Source of the DNA: Ancylobacter polymorphus
GTDB lineage: Bacteria; Pseudomonadota; Alphaproteobacteria; Rhizobiales; Xanthobacteraceae
Reading direction: 5' to 3'
Assembly: GCF_022836935.1 (NCBI RefSeq)
Contig: NZ_CP083241.1
Span: 124,001-188,000 of the forward strand
Length of the DNA stretch: 64,000 nucleotides
The translations under genes were made by a program, and so were the position numbers. The stretch's first letter is position 1. Each line of letters begins with the position of its first letter. The notes beneath the pieces were generated by a model, which was not told the DNA's origin, searched no databases, and worked only from the letters and a program-made list of their open reading frames with translations. Shown piece by piece: positions 54,386 through 63,860 of this stretch.

Positions 54386-55615
54386 TCATGCCCGTTTCTT
54401 CTCCCCTTTCCGTTTGCCGATCAGCGCCATGAGCATCGGCCCGATGGAGAAGGTGCCGGCTTGCGCCTTTCGCGTCAGGTCGCGGATATAGCCGCCGGCA
54501 CTGTTGATCGCCGTGCCGCGCTGAAGAATGGCGGCGACGACCACGGCGGCCTGCACCTCGCCCATGGCGGATTGCGCCTCCTCCCAGGCGCTGGGGCTGA
54601 TCCCGAGCATCGGCCGGACCACGGCGACGGTCGCCATGAAGTCCCGCCAGTTGGAAATGCCGCCCCGGGCATAGTCGATGATATCGGGGCAGGCATCGAG
54701 GATCATGCCAAGAGGATAGGCCCCCTCTGGCGGACGCGGCGGTTCCGTCTTCAGTTCGGTCCCCGCCCCCCTGCTTTCTCGAAAGCGAGGTTCAAGATCA
54801 ATAGGAGACTTTGGATTTGAATTCTGTTTGTGGCGCTCAGTTTGAGACTCATTGGCGCTTGAAAATGAGGTTTTTGCCTGCGCTTCCAGCAAGATGAGGA
54901 TCTCGTCGGCCAGAATCGCGAGGTCTTCCGCAACACGCTCCAGCGTCGGGCGGTCAGCATTGCGCGGAATCCGCTCGACAATGGCCCGGTAGAGCCCATG
55001 GATCTCCATCCAGTCGGCGGGGCCCTGCCCGCACAGCTGCGTGGGAACGCCTTCCTCAAGGCCGGTGGCGATCATCTTGGCGATGTCCCGCCGGCACAGG
55101 GTGATGCGCTCGCGCACCAGCTTGAGCGCTCGCTCTTCCGCCTTCACTTCCTCGGCCCAGGCTTCGAACTCCTCGGCCCGCGCCACCAGCGGCGACAGGT
55201 CGAAGCCGAAGGCCCGCTCGATTTCGCCGGCGCGGTCCTTGCGGGCGTAGCGTTTGCCGTTGGGGCTGTCGCGCCGGACGATCAGCCCCGCATCCACCAG
55301 CACCGCGAGATGCCGGCGCAGCGTCGCCGGCGCCATGCCATGCGCCCGCAGCGACAATTGCTGGTTGGACGGGAAGACGATGAGGTCCTCGCCGGTCAGC
55401 GCGGTCTCCGGGTGAAACGACAGCAGCGCGTCAAGCACCGCCAGCGCCCGCTCGGACACACCGATGCGCGCCTTCGCGGTGCAGATCGCCCGGAACACGT
55501 TCCATTTATGCACCGCCTTGTCCAAGGGGCGGGCCTTCGCCACGGCCTGGCTCGCCACATGGGCAAGCGACAGCGACCGCCGCCCGAAGGGGGTCGTCGT
55601 GATATGCGTCTGCAT
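54386..55615 (-). CDS. repC: RepC replication initiator of a repABC plasmid
   Basis: A 409-residue initiator. The N-terminal RP-C domain is RRSLSLAHVASQAVAKARPLD followed by KWNVFRAICTAKARIGVSERALAVLDALLSF, with a winged-helix region (LSLRAHGMAPATLRRHLAVLV). The C-terminal RP-C_C domain has RPMLGISPSAWEEAQSAMGEV and INSAGGYIRDLTRKAQAGTFS. RepC starts replication at an origin inside its own gene. Last gene of repABC; its synthesis is restrained by the ctRNA upstream. Confidence 0.93.
   Translation of the reverse strand: MQTHITTTPFGRRSLSLAHVASQAVAKARPLDKAVHKWNVFRAICTAKARIGVSERALAVLDALLSFHPETALTGEDLIVFPSNQQLSLRAHGMAPATLRRHLAVLVDAGLIVRRDSPNGKRYARKDRAGEIERAFGFDLSPLVARAEEFEAWAEEVKAEERALKLVRERITLCRRDIAKMIATGLEEGVPTQLCGQGPADWMEIHGLYRAIVERIPRNADRPTLERVAEDLAILADEILILLEAQAKTSFSSANESQTERHKQNSNPKSPIDLEPRFRESRGAGTELKTEPPRPPEGAYPLGMILDACPDIIDYARGGISNWRDFMATVAVVRPMLGISPSAWEEAQSAMGEVQAAVVVAAILQRGTAINSAGGYIRDLTRKAQAGTFSIGPMLMALIGKRKGEKKRA
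54775..54885. other. AT-rich segment in repC, probable oriV
   Basis: Within GC-rich repC, this 110-base stretch is visibly AT-rich (TTTGGATTTGAATTC, TTGAAAATGAGGTTTTTG) and encodes the linker between the two RepC domains. In studied repABC replicons the origin is an AT-rich stretch inside repC, so this is the likely oriV. Confidence 0.6.
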
Positions 55616-55683
55616 TTTCCTTCACCTTGATCTGGGCAAAAGAAAAACGCTCGCCGAAACGGCGCTGAGGCCTCGCATGAGGC

Positions 55684-55712
55684 TTGACGGTGATTCCAGG
55701 AAGTGCGATTCT
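55684..55712 (+). promoter_or_regulatory. ctRNA promoter
   Basis: TTGACG (55684-55689) and GATTCT (55707-55712) with 17-base spacing face rightward, against repABC, and point at the terminator at 55735-55772. Confidence 0.6.
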
Positions 55713-55718
55713 CAGGCT

Positions 55719-55772
55719 GTCACACGTTGAGAAGGGCTTCCGGAACTCTGTTTCGGGGGCCTTTTTCTTTTT
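55719..55772 (+). ncRNA. Antisense ctRNA (incompatibility RNA) of repABC
   Basis: The repB-repC gap holds a rightward promoter and an intrinsic terminator that define a small RNA of roughly 55 bases complementary to the repC leader. In repABC plasmids this counter-transcribed RNA blocks repC translation and sets copy number and incompatibility. The exact start is inferred from the promoter. Confidence 0.7.
55735..55772 (+). terminator. Intrinsic terminator of the ctRNA
   Basis: GGCTTCCGGAAC (55735-55746) pairs fully, with a few G-T pairs, with GTTTCGGGGGCC (55750-55761) over a three-base loop, followed by TTTTTCTTTTT. Confidence 0.85.
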
Positions 55773-55812
55773 GCCGGGTGTAGCATTGGGGCATGGGCCC
55801 CGGCTCAGCCGG

Positions 55813-56823
55813 TCAATTCGTCATCTCATCTCCCTTGTTCGCGTCCGAGAATTCCTCAAACAGCCTGTCGAGCTGGGAGGCAACGAAGTCGGCGAAATCC
55901 GGCACGGCCTTCTCGTTGAAGACCAGCGCCGTGCGCCCGCCTCCACGCTCGACATACCCTGCCCGGCGGCCCTGCGGCGTCGTCCAGACATCGCTCCGCG
56001 CAGGCAGCCGGGGCTTGTCGGCCAGCCTCTGCCAGAGCGCCTGAAAGCGCCGGTCGCTGTCCATGGCCCGCAGGGCCGGGTCGTCCAGCATCGCTTCCAC
56101 GCTCTGGAGAAGTTTCGGGTTGTCCAGCTTCTCGGCGAGGCCGAGCCATCGTGCTCGTCCCGATTTGGGGGCCGGGCCGATACGCCGGACAAGCGCTTCC
56201 GGAATACGGCGCGCAACGGCGATGTAACGGCTAAGATCGGCCTTGTCGGTGGAAAGGGCGGCGATGATGGTCTGCCGGTCATGGCCGGCATCCTCCAGCC
56301 GCTTGGCGAACAGCGCTTTCTCGATAAACGACAGGTCTTGTCGGTCGAGATTCTCGCGCCCTTGCGCCACCACCAGCTCGGCGTCGCTCAGCGACTTGAT
56401 GATCGCCTTCACCGAACGGCCGAGCCGCTCGGCGGCTCGCAGCCGGCGTCGGCCATAGGCGATCTGAAAGCGCCCGGCCGCATCAGGGTGCGGCCGCACG
56501 AGAATGGGCACCTGCTGTCCGTTCGCCTCGATGCTCGCGACCAGTTGCTCGAAGCCGGGATCGATCTCGATCGAAATCCGGTCGGCGATTGTCGAGCCGT
56601 CGATCTGGCTCGGCTCAAGCGATACCACGACATCGCTTGTGGCCAACTGCTGCTTCAGCCGTTCGCTGGCTCTCGCGGTTTCGGACAGCTCCTGGAGCGA
56701 TGCGCCCATTGCCGCGACGGCGCCGGTGCGAACGCGCTCCGGTGCCCGCGCAGGGGAGGGGGCGGCAGCGTCCGGCTTCTTCAGGAACAGCGAATTGATC
56801 GCGTCCTTCCGACTCATCGCCAT
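55813..56823 (-). CDS. repB: RepB (ParB-like) partition protein
   Basis: A 336-residue ParB-family centromere-binding protein. The ParB/Srx core reads GFEQLVASIEANGQQVPILV and FQIAYGRRRLRAAERLG (CTP-binding motif), followed by an HTH around ERKALFAKRL-like LSFIEKALFAKRLEDAGHD. The C-terminus has the RepB dimer domain. It binds the two parS palindromes at 56871-56970 and works with RepA. Start ATG 56823 (or 56817). Confidence 0.93.
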   Translation of the reverse strand: MAMSRKDAINSLFLKKPDAAAPSPARAPERVRTGAVAAMGASLQELSETARASERLKQQLATSDVVVSLEPSQIDGSTIADRISIEIDPGFEQLVASIEANGQQVPILVRPHPDAAGRFQIAYGRRRLRAAERLGRSVKAIIKSLSDAELVVAQGRENLDRQDLSFIEKALFAKRLEDAGHDRQTIIAALSTDKADLSRYIAVARRIPEALVRRIGPAPKSGRARWLGLAEKLDNPKLLQSVEAMLDDPALRAMDSDRRFQALWQRLADKPRLPARSDVWTTPQGRRAGYVERGGGRTALVFNEKAVPDFADFVASQLDRLFEEFSDANKGDEMTN

Positions 56824-57035
56824 CCCTCCTGAATGAGGCGCCGCACGACAGGGTCGAGCCTCGGCGTGCTGTTGGGAGCTCCCAACGCGGCCGCGATGTC
56901 ACCGCGGATCGCGCGCCCATGTGAGAGGGTCGCGTAGGCTTGCCTCGCCGTGTTGGGAGCTCCCAACACGGTCGGCCGGGGAGGGGAGGAGCAGGGCGCC
57001 ATACCGCGATCCCTGTTCATCACGCCCGCCCCCAC
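56814..57035 (-). CDS. RepD-like small open frame spanning parS sites
   Basis: A 73-residue frame overlaps the ends of repA and repB. Its repeated GAPN residues are encoded by the parS palindromes themselves. pTAR/pTiC58-type repABC operons contain a similar small gene, repD, at this place with parS inside it. It might be translated to keep the repA-repB mRNA coupled, but coding is not demonstrated. Confidence 0.4.
   Translation of the reverse strand: MGAGVMNRDRGMAPCSSPPRPTVLGAPNTARQAYATLSHGRAIRGDIAAALGAPNSTPRLDPVVRRLIQEGWR
56871..56886. promoter_or_regulatory. parS site 1
   Basis: GTTGGGAGCTCCCAAC is a perfect 16-bp palindrome matching the repABC parS form GTT-N4-GC-N4-AAC. It lies in the repA-repB gap where RepB binds in related plasmids. 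Confidence 0.85.
56949..56970. promoter_or_regulatory. parS site 2 (extended)
   Basis: The same 16-bp palindrome (56952-56967) extended by CGT/ACG to 22 bp of perfect symmetry, 65 bases from parS site 1. Two adjacent parS sites between repA and repB match the arrangement known from Ti plasmids. Confidence 0.85.
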
Positions 57036-58252
57036 GCGGCCTTGATCAGCCCTTCGATCTCGGCGTTCACAGCGTCCAGGGCTTCCATCGCTCGGTCATA
57101 GGTCGACCGCGTGAGATTCTCCCGCCCGATCTCATAGAGCGTCTGCTTGGTCAGGCCGGCATCGGAGATGGCAGCGGACTTCACCATCGGGTTGGTCAGG
57201 ACATAATCGTCGAACAGGTTGCGCAGCAGGGCTGCCACCTTGGTCTGCGGGGCGTCCTGCGGCTCGAAGCGCGTGAACAGGTAGCGGAGGAAATCATATT
57301 TCAACTCTCCGCCCGCCTCGCGAACCACGCCGAGCAAGTCCCGCGTCATGAGCAGAAACTGGCTCATCGAGGCAATGTCCAGCATTTGCGGATGCACGGT
57401 AACGATCATCGCGGTCGCCGCGCACAGGCCGCTCAGGGTGAGGAATCCCAACTGAGGTGGGCAGTCGATGACAATAACGTCGTAGCGATCCGCCACCTCG
57501 TCAAAGGCCGCAGCCACGCGGGTAAAGAAGAGATCCCCTCGCGACCTGTCCGTGGCGGCCAGCGCCTTCGGCGTCGTGTGCTCGAACTCCATCAGTTCGA
57601 GATTGCCGGGGATGAGATCGAGGCCGTCAAAATAGGTGGGCCGGATCACCTCGGCCAGCGGCCGACGGGCACCGTCATACCGAATGGCGGCGTAGAGCGT
57701 TTCGTTCGCAAGGACGTCGGTTTCCGGCATCACGCCAAGCAGGGCGGAGAGGCTAGCTTGCGGGTCGAGATCGACCGCGAGCACGCGGTATCCCTGCAGT
57801 GCGAGGTACTGCGCCAGGTGAGCGGAAGTCGTGGTCTTGCCCGATCCGCCCTTGAAATTGGTGACCGCCAGAACCTGAAGATGTTCGCCCGCGCGACGAT
57901 GCGGCACGAACTCGACGCTTTCCCTGCCGCGAGCCGACCCTGCCAGAAGACGTCGGATCTCATTGAGCTGTCCCAGCGTATACAGACGCCGGCCATTGGC
58001 GGCCGTCTCCGGCAGGGGGCCTTCTCCCGCAAGCGTCATTTTCCGCAAGGTCGAATCCGAAATGCCGATCAACCGCGCCGCTTCGCCGGACGTGAAGCGG
58101 CGGAGAACCTTCTTCGACGAGGGCGGGAACAAGGCCTCGCTCATCGCCTGCAGCTGCGAACTCAACAATTCGGCCTGTGAGCCGATCGTCTCGTCCACAC
58201 CAGCTATAATTTTTCGCGCGGGATCAGCGGCGTTCACGTCGAAAACTTTCAT
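57020..58252 (-). CDS. repA: RepA (ParA-like) partition ATPase
   Basis: A 410-residue ParA ATPase. An N-terminal MerR-like HTH (FTSGEAARLIGISDSTLRKM) precedes the deviant Walker A FKGGSGKTTTSAHLAQYLA, then VLAVDLDPQASLSALLG and YDVIVIDCPPQLGFLTL. It moves plasmid copies with RepB/parS and represses the operon. ATG 58252 chosen; upstream codons belong to the promoter region. First gene of repABC. Confidence 0.93.
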   Translation of the reverse strand: MKVFDVNAADPARKIIAGVDETIGSQAELLSSQLQAMSEALFPPSSKKVLRRFTSGEAARLIGISDSTLRKMTLAGEGPLPETAANGRRLYTLGQLNEIRRLLAGSARGRESVEFVPHRRAGEHLQVLAVTNFKGGSGKTTTSAHLAQYLALQGYRVLAVDLDPQASLSALLGVMPETDVLANETLYAAIRYDGARRPLAEVIRPTYFDGLDLIPGNLELMEFEHTTPKALAATDRSRGDLFFTRVAAAFDEVADRYDVIVIDCPPQLGFLTLSGLCAATAMIVTVHPQMLDIASMSQFLLMTRDLLGVVREAGGELKYDFLRYLFTRFEPQDAPQTKVAALLRNLFDDYVLTNPMVKSAAISDAGLTKQTLYEIGRENLTRSTYDRAMEALDAVNAEIEGLIKAAWGRA

Positions 58253-58820
58253 CACGGATAAACTGCCAATACGGCATGTTTTCCGTGACGATAAGCATGA
58301 ACCGATTCGACGCAAGCGTTTAGTGGTTAACGAGACCTTACCAGCACGAAAGCGCCAGTGGCACCGGCCTGCTGACATTGAAGAACTTGGCGTGTTGTCA
58401 ATACCTTGACCAAGATGCATTCCGCGACAGGACGCTTTCGGCCGGCTAGGGCGGGCCAAAATTGTCAGTCACGCCCGCTCGCTTTGTCACCCCCAATTGC
58501 CTTCCGGTAGAGCATTCACCGGCCTCAACGCGCCGTCCGACCGGTCACGCCCGATTCCCTCCGCGAACGCGAATGAACCCCAGCCTTCAACCGCGCCAAC
58601 TCGTGGCCGAAACGCAGCAGATTTTATCTGTAATCGTTAGAAATCATTGATCTTGCATCACAATTCGGTTGAGCTAAGGCTAGCACTGCTTTTCCTTTAC
58701 AACGCGGCGCGCAGCCCATCAGCGGCGTTCGCCTTCCACCGGTAACCGCCTTGGCTCCTTGCGTGATCAACCATCGGCTCTGGACGGCATGCGCCCACGC
58801 CCGCGCCGGAGGAGGGGACC
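58253..58820. other. Divergent intergenic region between repA and the ECF sigma gene
   Basis: About 570 bases with no supported gene. The left part must hold the repA promoter and RepA operator. An AT-rich stretch at 58615-58680 (TTTTATCTGTAATCG, AGAAATCATTGATC) probably belongs to the promoter of the sigma factor gene; no Fur or Irr box can be named with confidence. Confidence 0.4.
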
Positions 58821-59333
58821 ATGCCTAGGGCGCTCAACCATTGGCTCGGAGAGCTTTACCGGCGCCATCACCGCGACCTCGTGCGGTTCGCCGCCCGGCT
58901 GGTGGGGGATCGCGACGGCGGCGAGGAAGTGGTGCAGAATGCCTATCTGCGGCTCGCCGGCCGCTCCGCGCAGGCGGTGGCGATCGAGCATCCCAAGACC
59001 TATGCGTTTGCCGCGACCCGCACCGCCGCCATCGACTTCACTGCCCGGCGCCACGCCGAATGGCTTCACCGGGTCGACATTGAGGAAATCGACGCGCTGG
59101 CCGCCCGCGGCGATTGCGAGGGCGACCTGCACCACCGGCGCCGCATCGTCCGGCTCGCTGTGCTGCTGAACGAACTGCCGCCGGCCTGCCAGAGGGCTTT
59201 CGTGATGAACAAGCTGGAAGGCCGTGGCCATCGCGAGATCGCCGCGCATCTCGGCGTCTCCGTCAGCATGGTGGAGAAGCACATCCTGCGTGCGCTCATC
59301 CATTGCCGGGACCTCATGCGCGACGAGGAGTGA
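58821..59333 (+). CDS. ECF sigma factor, FecI-like
   Basis: A 170-residue extracytoplasmic-function sigma factor. Region 2 is YRRHHRDLVRFAARLVGDRD with GGEEVVQNAYLRLA; region 4 is LPPACQRAFVMNKLEGRGHR and EIAAHLGVSVSMVEKHILRAL. It directs RNA polymerase to the receptor promoter when released by the FecR-like protein encoded next. First gene of a FecI-FecR-receptor signalling set. Confidence 0.92.
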   Translation: MPRALNHWLGELYRRHHRDLVRFAARLVGDRDGGEEVVQNAYLRLAGRSAQAVAIEHPKTYAFAATRTAAIDFTARRHAEWLHRVDIEEIDALAARGDCEGDLHHRRRIVRLAVLLNELPPACQRAFVMNKLEGRGHREIAAHLGVSVSMVEKHILRALIHCRDLMRDEE

Positions 59334-59417
59334 GGAAAGGCCATTGAGGATTTCGCGCGTGACAGGCGTCTATAGGGGTGTGCCTTTGTCCCATTCTGTT
59401 GCGAGACGCCCTTGGTA

Positions 59418-60392
59418 ATGTCGCCGCCCCATCGCCCGTCCTACCCGCCCCGTGCCCTGTCGGACGAGGCGCTGGCTTTCATCGTGCGCCTGCATTCCGG
59501 CGAGACGCAGCCGGCGGTTCTTGCCGCCTTCACGGCGTGGCGGCAACTGAGCCCCGACCACGAGGCGGCGGCACGGGAGGCGGAGCAGCTCTGGGGCGAT
59601 GCGTCGCTTCTGCACCAGGATGCCCGCAGCGGCCTCATCCGCCCGGGCCCGGGCCGGCGCGCCGGCGACGGCCTGTCGCGACGCGACCTGCTGGCGGGAG
59701 CCGCCGGGCTCGGCCTCGCCGGCGCCGGCGGGGCGTGGCTCGCGGGACGGCTGGGGCCGCGTGCCGACATCGCCACCGGAACCGGTGACGTGCGGACGGT
59801 CACACTGGCCGACCGCTCTCAAGTCACGTTGAACGCCCGCACGGCGCTCGCGCTCGATTTCACCGCCGAACGGCGCGAGGTGCGGCTGCTCGAAGGGCAG
59901 GCGTTTTTCGACGTGGCGGCCGATTCCTCGCGGCCGTTCGAGGTGGTGGCGGGGGAGAGCCGGCTGCAGGCGCTAGGCACCGCCTTCGATGTCGACGCCA
60001 ATCGCGGCGACGGCTCGGTGGCGGTGAGTGTCGTCGAACATGCGGTGCGCGTGACAGGAGCGGACGAACGCACGCTGAAGGCGGGCGAGCGCCTGCGCGT
60101 CGGTGCGGATGGGCGCCTCGGGCCGGTCACGTTGCAGCCGGCCGATATCACTCTCGCCTGGCGCTCGGGTTTTTACATCGCGCAGGACCGTTCGCTCTCG
60201 GACATCATCGCGGCGCTGCGTCCCTACCATTCCGGCTGGATCATTGCCCGCGGCGCCGGCCTCGACACGCTGCGCGTCAATGCCGTGCTCGACCTGCGCA
60301 CCCCCGAGGCGTCGCTTGCCGCTCTGGCGCAGGGGCTCCCGGTCCGGGTGATCCCGCTTTCGGCGTTCCTCACCATCGTCTCGGCGGCGTGA
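59418..60392 (+). CDS. FecR-like transmembrane anti-sigma regulator
   Basis: A FecR of about 324 residues. It has the N-terminal DUF4880 region (LSDEALAFIVRLHSGETQPA, FTAWRQLSPDHEAAAREAEQLW), a single hydrophobic segment about residues 93-112 (LLAGAAGLGLAGAGG) after SRRD, and the FecR domain (TGDVRTVTLADRSQVTLNART). The periplasmic C-terminus has the STN-contact region (FYIAQDRSLSDIIAAL). It relays ligand occupancy from the receptor to the sigma factor. ATG 59418 or the upstream TTG 59412. Confidence 0.9.
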   Translation: MSPPHRPSYPPRALSDEALAFIVRLHSGETQPAVLAAFTAWRQLSPDHEAAAREAEQLWGDASLLHQDARSGLIRPGPGRRAGDGLSRRDLLAGAAGLGLAGAGGAWLAGRLGPRADIATGTGDVRTVTLADRSQVTLNARTALALDFTAERREVRLLEGQAFFDVAADSSRPFEVVAGESRLQALGTAFDVDANRGDGSVAVSVVEHAVRVTGADERTLKAGERLRVGADGRLGPVTLQPADITLAWRSGFYIAQDRSLSDIIAALRPYHSGWIIARGAGLDTLRVNAVLDLRTPEASLAALAQGLPVRVIPLSAFLTIVSAA

Positions 60393-60509: not shown

Positions 60510-63500
60510 ATGGCGGGCTTCAGGGGACGAAAGGGTGTTTTGTGGGCATGCCTGACGGCATCGACGATGCTGATGCCGCTGCATCTCGGCGCGGCGCAGG
60601 CGCAGCCGGCGGGCGCGGTCCAGCGCAGCTTCGACATACCGGCCCAGCCGCTCGGCGCGGCGCTGACCGCCTTCGCCCGCCAGACCGGCATCCAGTTCGC
60701 CTATCCCGCCTCGCTCACCTCCGGGCGGACCTCGCCGGCGCTGCGCGGCAGCTTCTCGCCGGAAGACGCGCTGGCGCGGCTGCTGGCCGGAAGCGGGCTG
60801 ATCTATGCCTTCACGGGCCCGGCCCGCGTGACGATCTCGGCGCCGGTCTCGGGCGGCGGCGTGGACAGTGCCGCCGACGGCGCGATCGCCCTTGACGCCA
60901 TCGACGTCTCCGGCGCCCGCGCGGCGGCGGACACGCCGTTCGAGACCCCGGGCTCCACCAACTACATCTCAGCCGAAGAGATCGAGCGCTTCCCGCCGCA
61001 GACCGCCGGCGCGTTGTTCCAGGGCACGCCGGGTGTCATTTCCGGCGGCGGCAATAACGGCGCCTCGATCGACCCGAACATTCGCGGCCTGCAGGGCCAG
61101 AACCGCGTCGCCACTACGATTGACGGCTCCCAGCAATCGACCTCCTCCTATCGCGGCTATTCCGGCATCGACAGCCGCACTTATGTCGACCCGGATCTCA
61201 TTTCGGGCATCACCGTCACCAAGGGCCCGGACGGCGCGGTCGCCGGGGCGATCGGCGGCACCATCGCCATGCAGACGCTGGACGTCGAGGACATTCTTCA
61301 GGCCGGCGAGCGTTGGGGCGTGCGTGTGCGCGGCGGGCTCGCCACCAATTCGGTCGCGCCGGTTGTCGGCGAAACGGCGGCGGTGTTCGGCGGCGGCGAC
61401 GGCGCGGCCATCACCAATGGCAGCTTCGCCCTCGCGGTGCGGGAGGAGAATGTCGACGTGATCGGCGCGGTGGTGCGGCGCAAGACCGGCAATTACTTTG
61501 CCGGCACGCAGGGCTCCCTCACCACCACCGACTATCTCGGAAACGAGGTGCCGCTGTCGAATTACGGCCATGGCCAGCTTGTCTACAACACCTCGGAAGA
61601 CGTGACCTCGGCGCTGCTGAAAGCCACTTTCCGCCCCACCGACGAGCAGGAACTGCAGATCGGCTATCTCTATTACGGCAACGAGTTCGGCGAGATTTCG
61701 CCTTCCGCGATCAATGCCGGAACCAATGTGACCTTCCAGATCCCGCTCAGCTCGGTCGCCATCAACCAGCTGACGGCGCGCTATCATTATGAGCCCGCCA
61801 ACAACGACCTCGTCGACCTCAAGATCAATGCCTACCTCTCCAACACCGATGAAAACAATGTCTTCGCCGTTCTCGGCACCACGCCGGAACTGCAGCAGCA
61901 ATCGAAGAATGTCGGCGTCAACGCCAGCAACACCTCGCATTTCATGCTGAAGGACACGCCGCTCGATCTCACCCTGGGCGGCTCATTCACCTATGAGGAC
62001 GCAGAGCCCGTATCCGTCGACACCTGGGCCGATGCGACGTGGTGGGCGATTCCGGCCGATGGCGACCGCACCATCGGCGCGCTGTTCGCCCGCGTGAACT
62101 GGGAGCCGACCCCGTGGCTCGCCTTGGCGGCGGGGGTGGAATACCTCGCCTATGACACCAACTTCACCGGCACGACCTATTACGCGACCGACGAACCCTT
62201 CAGCGGCTATTCCGGCGATGGCTTCAGCCCGAGCGCCAGCATCACCGTGACGCCACTTGAGGGCTGGCAGATCTATGGCCAGTACCAGAGCGGCATCCGC
62301 CCGCCCAGCGTGCGCGAGACCAGCCAGACCCGCGCCGACCAGGTGTTCACCAGCGATCTCGACGCCGAACAGGCGAGCAATTGGGAAGTGGGCACCAACT
62401 TCCTGCGCGACAATCTCTTCATGGAGGGCGACAAGGCCCGGCTGAAGCTCGCCTATTTCGACAATACCACGAACAACTATATCGGCCGCACCTTCACCGG
62501 TACGATGAGCCTGTTCAATTATGATTATGTGCGCTTCAAGGGCTTCGAAATTTCCGGCCGCTACGATGCCGGGCCGATCTTCACCGAATTCGGCTTCAAC
62601 TACTACACCGACTACGAAGCTTGCCTCGATGACGGCACCTGCCTCGACTACACTCTGCCGGCCGATTACCTGACCAATCAGGTGCCCCCGCAGTTCACCG
62701 CGTCCTTCACCGCCGGCGCGCGGCTGTTCGACGACCGCGTGACCATTGGCGGCCGCGTCACCTATATGGGCGAGCGCCTCGCCCCCGTGGTGGATGACGG
62801 CTCCTATTTCGTCGTCACCAAGCTGTGGGAGCCCTACACGGTCGTCGATGCCTTCGTGCAGTGGAAGCTGAACGAGAACCTGACGCTGGATGTCAGCGCG
62901 CTGAACATTCTCGACGCCTATTATGTCGACGCGCTGAACAACACCGACATGCCCGCCCCCGGCCGCACCATCACCGCGACCCTGACTGGGCGCTTCGGCA
63001 GCGGCGAACCGCTGGCCCCGTTGCCGCTCGGCCTGCGGCTGAACAGCGAGGCGTGGACCGGGCTCTATGCCGGCGCCTCCGTCGGCTATGGCTTCGCGTC
63101 CATCGACGGCACGACGACGCTGGCGGATGGTAGTGCCAACGCCATTGCGGCGACGGAATCGGCGAACGAGACGCTCGACGGCATGCTGGGCGGTGGCCAG
63201 ATCGGCTACAATTACCAGTTCCGCAATGGGATCGTGCTCGGCGTCGAGGCGGATTTCAGCTGGCTCGCCCACAAGACCACGCATGCAGCGATCGCCACCG
63301 AGGCGCAGATCCTCATCGACAACGAGATGTGGCAGGCCAAGACGGATTATGCGTTCGACTGGCTCTCCACCATCCGCGCCAAGGCCGGCTATGCCCTCAA
63401 CGACCGGCTGTTCGTGTATGGCACCGGCGGCGTCGCCTTCCTGCGCGAGAGCGAGCAGCGCTCGCAATACATCGCCACCACGTCAGGGGCGAGCGTGCCG

Positions 63501-63860
63501 AACGGCCACACCACGACGCTCTATTTCACCGAGGCGACCGGTGCGACCCGCACCGGCTTCGCCGTGGGCGGCGGCGCCGAATACGCGCTCTCCGACCGCT
63601 GGTCGTTGAAGATGGACTATCTGTTCACCGGCTTCGGCAGCGAGAGCTTCCTGTTCCCCGGCGCCCGGGCCGGCGTCGGCAAAAGCTATTCGGTGCGCAC
63701 GGTCTGCCGGGCCAACAACTCGACCCCGCCATGCCCTGGGGGCAAAACGGTCATCATCACCCAAAACTTCACCGGCAGCTCCGAGACGGTGAATGGCCGC
63801 GAGGCCTCCAACGAGGCGGACCTGCAGATGCTCAAGATCGGCCTCAACTATCGTTTCTGA
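60510..63860 (+). CDS. TonB-dependent transducer/heme-type receptor fused to an Omp25-like beta-barrel
   Basis: A 1116-residue outer-membrane protein in four parts. A signal peptide (about 1-31) leads to an STN signalling domain (RSFDIPAQPLGAALTAFARQ ... LLAGSGLIYAF, about 34-115). A plug (EIERFPPQTAGALFQG, IRGLQGQNRVATTIDG, VTKGPDGAVAGAIGG) and a large TonB-receptor barrel follow, ending at ITATLTGRF (Phe829). After a short linker comes a second, Omp25/opacity-type barrel (WTGLYAGASVGYGF, GGGQIGYNYQF, VLGVEADFSW, LYGTGGVAF-like, AVGGGAEYALSDRWSLKMDY) ending LKIGLNYRF. The receptor part resembles heme receptors. Two barrels in one chain is highly unusual. Confidence 0.88.
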   Translation: MAGFRGRKGVLWACLTASTMLMPLHLGAAQAQPAGAVQRSFDIPAQPLGAALTAFARQTGIQFAYPASLTSGRTSPALRGSFSPEDALARLLAGSGLIYAFTGPARVTISAPVSGGGVDSAADGAIALDAIDVSGARAAADTPFETPGSTNYISAEEIERFPPQTAGALFQGTPGVISGGGNNGASIDPNIRGLQGQNRVATTIDGSQQSTSSYRGYSGIDSRTYVDPDLISGITVTKGPDGAVAGAIGGTIAMQTLDVEDILQAGERWGVRVRGGLATNSVAPVVGETAAVFGGGDGAAITNGSFALAVREENVDVIGAVVRRKTGNYFAGTQGSLTTTDYLGNEVPLSNYGHGQLVYNTSEDVTSALLKATFRPTDEQELQIGYLYYGNEFGEISPSAINAGTNVTFQIPLSSVAINQLTARYHYEPANNDLVDLKINAYLSNTDENNVFAVLGTTPELQQQSKNVGVNASNTSHFMLKDTPLDLTLGGSFTYEDAEPVSVDTWADATWWAIPADGDRTIGALFARVNWEPTPWLALAAGVEYLAYDTNFTGTTYYATDEPFSGYSGDGFSPSASITVTPLEGWQIYGQYQSGIRPPSVRETSQTRADQVFTSDLDAEQASNWEVGTNFLRDNLFMEGDKARLKLAYFDNTTNNYIGRTFTGTMSLFNYDYVRFKGFEISGRYDAGPIFTEFGFNYYTDYEACLDDGTCLDYTLPADYLTNQVPPQFTASFTAGARLFDDRVTIGGRVTYMGERLAPVVDDGSYFVVTKLWEPYTVVDAFVQWKLNENLTLDVSALNILDAYYVDALNNTDMPAPGRTITATLTGRFGSGEPLAPLPLGLRLNSEAWTGLYAGASVGYGFASIDGTTTLADGSANAIAATESANETLDGMLGGGQIGYNYQFRNGIVLGVEADFSWLAHKTTHAAIATEAQILIDNEMWQAKTDYAFDWLSTIRAKAGYALNDRLFVYGTGGVAFLRESEQRSQYIATTSGASVPNGHTTTLYFTEATGATRTGFAVGGGAEYALSDRWSLKMDYLFTGFGSESFLFPGARAGVGKSYSVRTVCRANNSTPPCPGGKTVIITQNFTGSSETVNGREASNEADLQMLKIGLNYRF

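Follow-up and report, generated by a model that had tools for sequence, protein, structure and literature searches.

Among the described systems, the hemophore receptor HasR of Serratia marcescens (PDB 3csl) has the closest fold to the plug and 22-stranded barrel of the TonB-dependent receptor reported here, which is encoded in a stretch of 64,000 nucleotides of Ancylobacter polymorphus contig NZ_CP083241.1 (the whole stretch is called the window below). HasR has no second barrel; the window receptor carries a small eight-stranded one, fused behind the first. In FecIRA-like signalling, an extracytoplasmic function (ECF) sigma factor, FecR and an STN-containing receptor stand in a row, as in the window, and the window receptor differs in its HasR-like, putative heme class and in being double-barrelled. 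HasR-like signalling as such is already known (PMC12772443). The second barrel resembles the free barrels of the Omp25/Omp31/Pap31 type (OMP_b-brl, PF13505) in its Pfam match, its eight strands and its OmpA fold, and is distinguished from them by the fusion, which leaves it no signal peptide or free N-terminus of its own, by a long loop 4, and by an R-x-Q motif. Solan et al. are said to have treated multi-barrel outer-membrane proteins as a class (PNAS, 2021). The class is already established, and one example is GfcD, which shares with the window receptor the presence of multiple barrels in one chain but is built of 12 + 13 strands and a middle domain located in the periplasm (PMC11494523). 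What appears to be new here is a family of HasR-type receptors that have two barrels, distinctive marks on the second one and a displaced end signal; no title or abstract found in literature searches, which mostly did not cover subscription papers, describes such a receptor-barrel fusion. Few membrane proteins have been studied as well as TonB receptors, which are assumed to stop at the last strand of the barrel, a rule that this family breaks systematically.

The receptor gene is a single open reading frame (ORF) of 1116 amino acids with an ATG start and without internal stop. The receptor barrel ends in TITATLTGRF, with the Phe829 codon at 62994-62996, and the chain runs on to LQMLKIGLNYRF (LKIGLNYRF), followed by a TGA stop. 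GC content at third codon positions is unchanged across the barrel junction (0.858 and 0.882 on its two sides). A start resembling a signal peptide, recognized by eye, is followed by STN (Pfam, residues 61-111, 5e-12), the plug (144-251, 4e-18), the TonB_dep_Rec barrel (385-800, 9e-37), a linker and the OMP_b-brl barrel (845-1043, 3e-13; 51 bits against a cut-off of 28.7). The AlphaFold model of the full chain (predicted local distance difference test score, pLDDT, 85.8; predicted template modelling score 0.76) contains two separate barrels, with 22 strands at residues 269-831 and 8 strands at 851-1115, tallied by hand from the DSSP listing. In this predicted chain, each of the two barrels is closed, folds separately from the other and has its own fold match. 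An earlier note, made from the sequence alone, had proposed a chimera of a TonB receptor and an Omp25-like barrel; the uninterrupted frame, the Pfam domains and the model agree with it, and the OMP_b-brl match and eight strands bear out the Omp25/OmpA type of the second barrel. Structure prediction did not return the one continuous barrel that the note had named as a refutation.

The search for the same architecture in other genomes, which the earlier note had advised, recovered many fused relatives. With residues 840-1116 as query against long proteins, 291 matches were obtained at E<=1e-5; 97 of the 120 listed were hand-picked as full-length proteins with receptor and OMP_b-brl domains and aligned, the other listed matches being fragments and other multi-barrel chains. 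With the receptor part as query, 81 proteins were retrieved at E<=1e-30; by manual count, 16 are short and single-barrelled. Of 318 confirmed places in named genomes, the 80 best were kept, which correspond to 79 loci; together with a paralogue from the same genome they hold 95 receptor-bearing ORFs, of which 86 are complete after 9 incomplete ones were set aside. Fused receptors make up 57 of these 86, with 223-323 residues beyond the receptor end, and the remaining 29 are unfused, with 0-7 residues; this share is not a prevalence, because the sample was ranked by similarity to the query. At E<=1e-40, 11 of 119 genomes of the organism's own family gave a match, and eight of these carry fused copies or parts of such copies cut off at contig ends (spans read manually). 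In a class-wide sample, 5 of 289 genomes matched at E<=1e-60; the own genome alone has the fusion, and the matches in the other four are single-barrelled. The fusion is therefore real, yet patchy in distribution, and constitutes a genuine conserved protein family in rhizobia-like bacteria. Single-barrel sister receptors, at times in the same genome or locus, allow direct comparison.

Several members deserve mention individually. The paralogue on the same contig (G000:C3:18605-22162; L010:10518-14165) is a second double-barrel receptor, 43% identical and with its own FecI and FecR, and the genome of Ancylobacter rudongensis has three fused second barrels. Tandem receptor operons combine two fused receptors (Azorhizobium, L058) or a fused and a single-barrel one (L056, Pseudochrobactrum L057, Hyphomicrobium L097). 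In Brucella cytisi (L077:4688-9455), the FecR and receptor frames are fragmented into pieces that overlap, which would suit a locus in decay or a sequencing error, and in the fused relatives P0108 and P0132 the second-barrel match ends midway, as from a frameshift or truncation. Six longer proteins (P0086, P0107, P0111, P0115, P0117, P0083) are apparently separate multi-barrel fusions: five chains of 1266-1747 amino acids combine a TonB-receptor barrel with between two and four OMP_b-brl stretches; the sixth, of 1218 amino acids, has three such stretches plus an OprB porin. An apparent internal stop in three relatives of the class-wide sample turned out to be an ordinary single-barrel end.

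A family-wide signal lies at the two barrel ends. Position 829 is Phe in all 25 single-barrel relatives counted (four remote ones, two ending in Tyr, are left out of the count), against 35 of 58 fused proteins, where Leu (16), Ile (6) and Tyr (1) also occur; among the 99 fused proteins of a wider alignment, 44 have Phe, 45 Leu and 10 other residues. Position 1116 is Phe in every fused protein of either set (58/58 and 99/99). The contrast between fused and unfused receptors at the inner Phe gives a Fisher p of 8.6e-5 with kinship ignored, and a sign test on 8 independent pairs, a small test, gives a median p of 0.125 (range 0.016-0.5). On the receptor tree, the inner-Phe state switches 12 times; in the independent pairs, Phe was always lost in the fused member and never in the opposite direction. 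Outside the junction, few receptor columns distinguish fused from unfused proteins. The plain reading of these alignments is that, once the chain end lay in barrel 2, the terminal-Phe requirement followed it there. The remark of the earlier note that each end looks like its own beta-signal stands for the window protein; across the family, the inner Phe is relaxed and the chain-terminal Phe invariant in the sets examined, so that the two ends are not equivalent. How the β-barrel assembly machinery (BAM) handles two barrels per chain becomes testable with such proteins.

The second barrel also has marks of its own, as judged from 58 fused barrels and 54 sampled free barrels. The median length of loop 4 is 47.5 residues in the fused set versus 11.5 in the free one, and the loop counts at least 30 residues in 46/58 fused barrels. 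Two or more Cys occur in this loop in 38/58 fused versus 3/54 free barrels, and R-x-Q at 984/986 in 54/58 versus 0/54 (with R-x-Q nearby in 2/54). By topology, loop 4 and the R-x-Q motif would face outward. Loop 4 is modelled with block mean confidences of 88-95 in the full chain versus 53-65 for the second barrel alone, a gain that is not counted in favour of contact, since the alignments behind the two models are not the same. Besides the linker, variability within barrel 2 is greatest in outer loops 2 and 3 (entropy 2.54 and 2.89 versus 1.58-2.19 in the strands). The linker spaces the receptor end 19-34 residues from a W[TSN]G motif in 52/57 relatives, the motif being unmatched in 5. In the search for free barrels, the E-value falls from 1e-63 to 4e-25 once two fused-gene fragments are passed; free barrels among the 120 listed matches are at most 41% identical, barring these fragments and one short partial match (44% over 32%).

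Both barrels are under purifying selection. In 17 hand-chosen, non-independent close pairs, the ratio of nonsynonymous to synonymous rates (omega) is 0.05-0.38 for barrel 2 and 0.014-0.175 for the receptor, and barrel 2 has the higher value in 16; it is therefore maintained, under looser constraint than the receptor. The fused or unfused state requires 8 changes on the receptor tree (87 rows). A quick tree places 54 of 58 fused second barrels in one starred clade. The four outside it (L078, L082, L086, L093), which have neither the loop-4 nor the R-x-Q mark, may be separate fusions; a single clade uniting all 58 is not rejected, and even scores better (approximately unbiased test, p-AU 0.919). 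For two of these four, the nearest free barrels in their own genomes are just 33-34% identical, so a recent fusion is not apparent. Trees of barrel 2 and receptor for 52 fused rows (the 58 less the four outliers and two identical copies) reject each other, with p-AU 1.8e-6 on barrel-2 data and 1.6e-38 on receptor data, although identities in the two parts correlate (r 0.63, 0/999 shuffles). To us this conflict suggests that barrels have been exchanged to some extent between receptor lineages, although saturation and rate differences could contribute to it. Five pairs formed by L041, L042, L094 and L097 with L032 (222) and L035, whose second barrels are 53-58% identical and receptors just 37-39%, likewise hint at exchange. 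A free barrel gene adjoining a single-barrel receptor, the 'Rosetta stone' pattern, was not found, only receptor ORFs being matched in the loci by one barrel-2 query at E<=1e-4, which remoter free barrels could escape. Nor was a barrel-2 remnant found within up to 2 kb downstream of the 29 unfused receptors (E<=0.05, low-complexity filter on; 10/10 fused genes matched in a control with the filter off).

The genomic context indicates a signalling receptor. FecI-type and FecR genes lie in this order upstream of the receptor gene, on the same strand, where the earlier note had placed them; with the STN domain they give the arrangement of cell-surface signalling of the FecIRA type. Both genes precede 55/57 fused and 20/29 unfused receptors. 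Within 5.5 kb downstream, a heme oxygenase-cluster gene was found for 16/57 fused and 11/29 unfused receptors, a TonB gene for 19/57 and 6/29, and an ExbB gene for 11/57 and 3/29 (six scanned cluster members belong to PF01126, two to TonB and one to ExbB families, the others being assigned by BLAST clustering). The heme oxygenase genes beside relatives suggest heme, and this context points to heme as the substrate of the receptor family, fused or not. Tyr217 of the plug is invariant in 83/83 aligned receptors and aligns with His189 of HasR. Tyr is a plausible heme ligand. A search of the own genome for HasA gave no match and was uninformative, since the control likewise had none.

Building on the two barrels, their conservation and selection, the operon and the terminal-Phe shift that the computations provide, we consider a functional heme-class double-barrel receptor and sensor to be a reasonably probable interpretation. 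The HasR-like barrel and plug would import an iron source, most likely heme, a ligand that we regard as likely, and the STN domain would signal its presence to FecR and FecI. The short periplasmic linker would hold the OmpA/Omp25-type barrel beside the receptor barrel, side-by-side insertion of the two in the outer membrane being very likely. The enlarged outer loop of barrel 2 might capture or dock heme or a heme protein near the receptor mouth. Brucella Omp31 and Bartonella Pap31/HbpA have been reported to bind hemin (PMC9728373 and PMC8877253, respectively). With such free relatives, a heme context and an enlarged loop 4, capture is the best single guess for barrel 2, and a role as surface co-receptor is a tentative one. 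Omp25/Omp31-type small barrels, some of them reported hemin binders, could now be tested as co-receptors for TonB-dependent uptake. A bolder and rather doubtful extension is a distinct family of single-chain receptor and co-receptor heme sensors, in which the small barrel would replace a secreted hemophore or lipoprotein partner and the assembly signal would have passed to the second barrel; if true, the family would be a natural system for BAM reading an internal versus a terminal barrel end.

Several observations weigh against heme or against capture. Among neighbouring ORFs and in the cluster comparison, no heme oxygenase gene stands beside the window gene or its paralogue; the only such match in the own genome lies on contig C1, adjoining another receptor match of 775 residues. 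His189 and His603 of HasR, which we take to be its heme ligands, have no His counterpart (numbering counted manually on the alignment with HasR): Tyr217 takes the place of His189, nothing conserved that of His603, and no His column is conserved in the receptor. The NCBIfam heme/hemoglobin model TIGR01785 is narrowly missed (316.4 versus 316.85 bits). The greater variability of outer loops 2 and 3 than of the strands does not favour one fixed ligand, and since single-barrel kin also stand beside heme oxygenase genes, barrel 2 is dispensable for the pathway.

Nearly as likely as capture, and still unlikely when taken alone, is a structural role, in which barrel 2 aids assembly or positioning of the receptor through BAM recruitment via the chain end, packing or anchoring, without ligand. 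The Phe constraint at the chain end (58/58, against 35/58 at the inner end) and the strands, which vary less than outer loops 2 and 3, agree with it, as does free Omp25 of Brucella abortus, reportedly tied to peptidoglycan. This linkage is described at an N-terminal Asp-Ala (PMC12729407), and that end is here fused to barrel 1, so this mode should be lost. A long loop 4 and R-x-Q, outward-facing by the predicted topology, would be superfluous for pure scaffolding, and single-barrel kin exist without barrel 2. The variability of loops 2 and 3 and the higher omega of barrel 2 would instead suit a shield that wards phages, bacteriocins or antibodies off the receptor, an improbable role given that loop 4 reaches 30 residues in most fused barrels (46/58) and omega is well below 1. 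Cleavage of one chain in the linker into separately acting proteins fits a linker that is variable and flexible in the model; a cleaved barrel 1 should retain its terminal Phe, which is lost in 23/58. Relaxation at 829 with fixation at 1116 thus argues for a single-chain product, and cleavage appears very improbable. Refuted for the family, and practically negligible overall, is the accidental read-through suggested by the earlier note, or a frameshift or assembly chimera: receptors normally end at the first Phe, as 29/86 relatives do, and against this stand fused genes 88-90% identical in other assemblies, the paralogue, the 57/86 complete receptors with the same architecture, the 97 further full-length proteins and purifying selection.

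Table. Coordinates of the receptor gene, its parts and the upstream regulatory genes in the window.
Feature	Position	Strand	Evidence
FecI-type ECF sigma factor	58821..59333	+	Pfam Sigma70_r4_2 1.6e-14, Sigma70_r2 7.6e-8
FecR-type anti-sigma/signal transducer	59412..60392	+	Pfam FecR 2.7e-20, DUF4880 1.2e-10
Double-barrel TonB-dependent receptor	60510..63860	+	ORF; Pfam; AlphaFold
STN signalling domain, residues 39-111	60624..60842	+	Pfam 61-111; model strands/helices 39-110
Plug domain, residues 139-256, invariant Tyr217	60924..61277	+	Pfam Plug; alignment
First barrel, 22 strands, residues 269-831, conserved Cys705/Cys711, Phe829	61314..63002	+	Model; alignment
Linker, residues 832-848, periplasmic by strand count	63003..63053	+	pLDDT <50 at 839-845
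Second barrel, 8 strands, residues 849-1116	63054..63857	+	Pfam OMP_b-brl; model
Long fourth outer loop of barrel 2, residues 1050-1096, Cys1066 and Cys1075	63657..63797	+	

Downstream, the receptor gene faces a convergent siderophore-type locus (FhuF, FecCD, binding protein, STN receptor, FecR, sigma factor). Genes matching RepC, RepB and ParA-type families are located at 54386-58459 on the minus strand, and the 232-kb contig C3 bearing the receptor is therefore probably a repABC plasmid. The last 17 bases of the receptor gene (63844-63860) overlap the end of the convergent FhuF gene on the minus strand.
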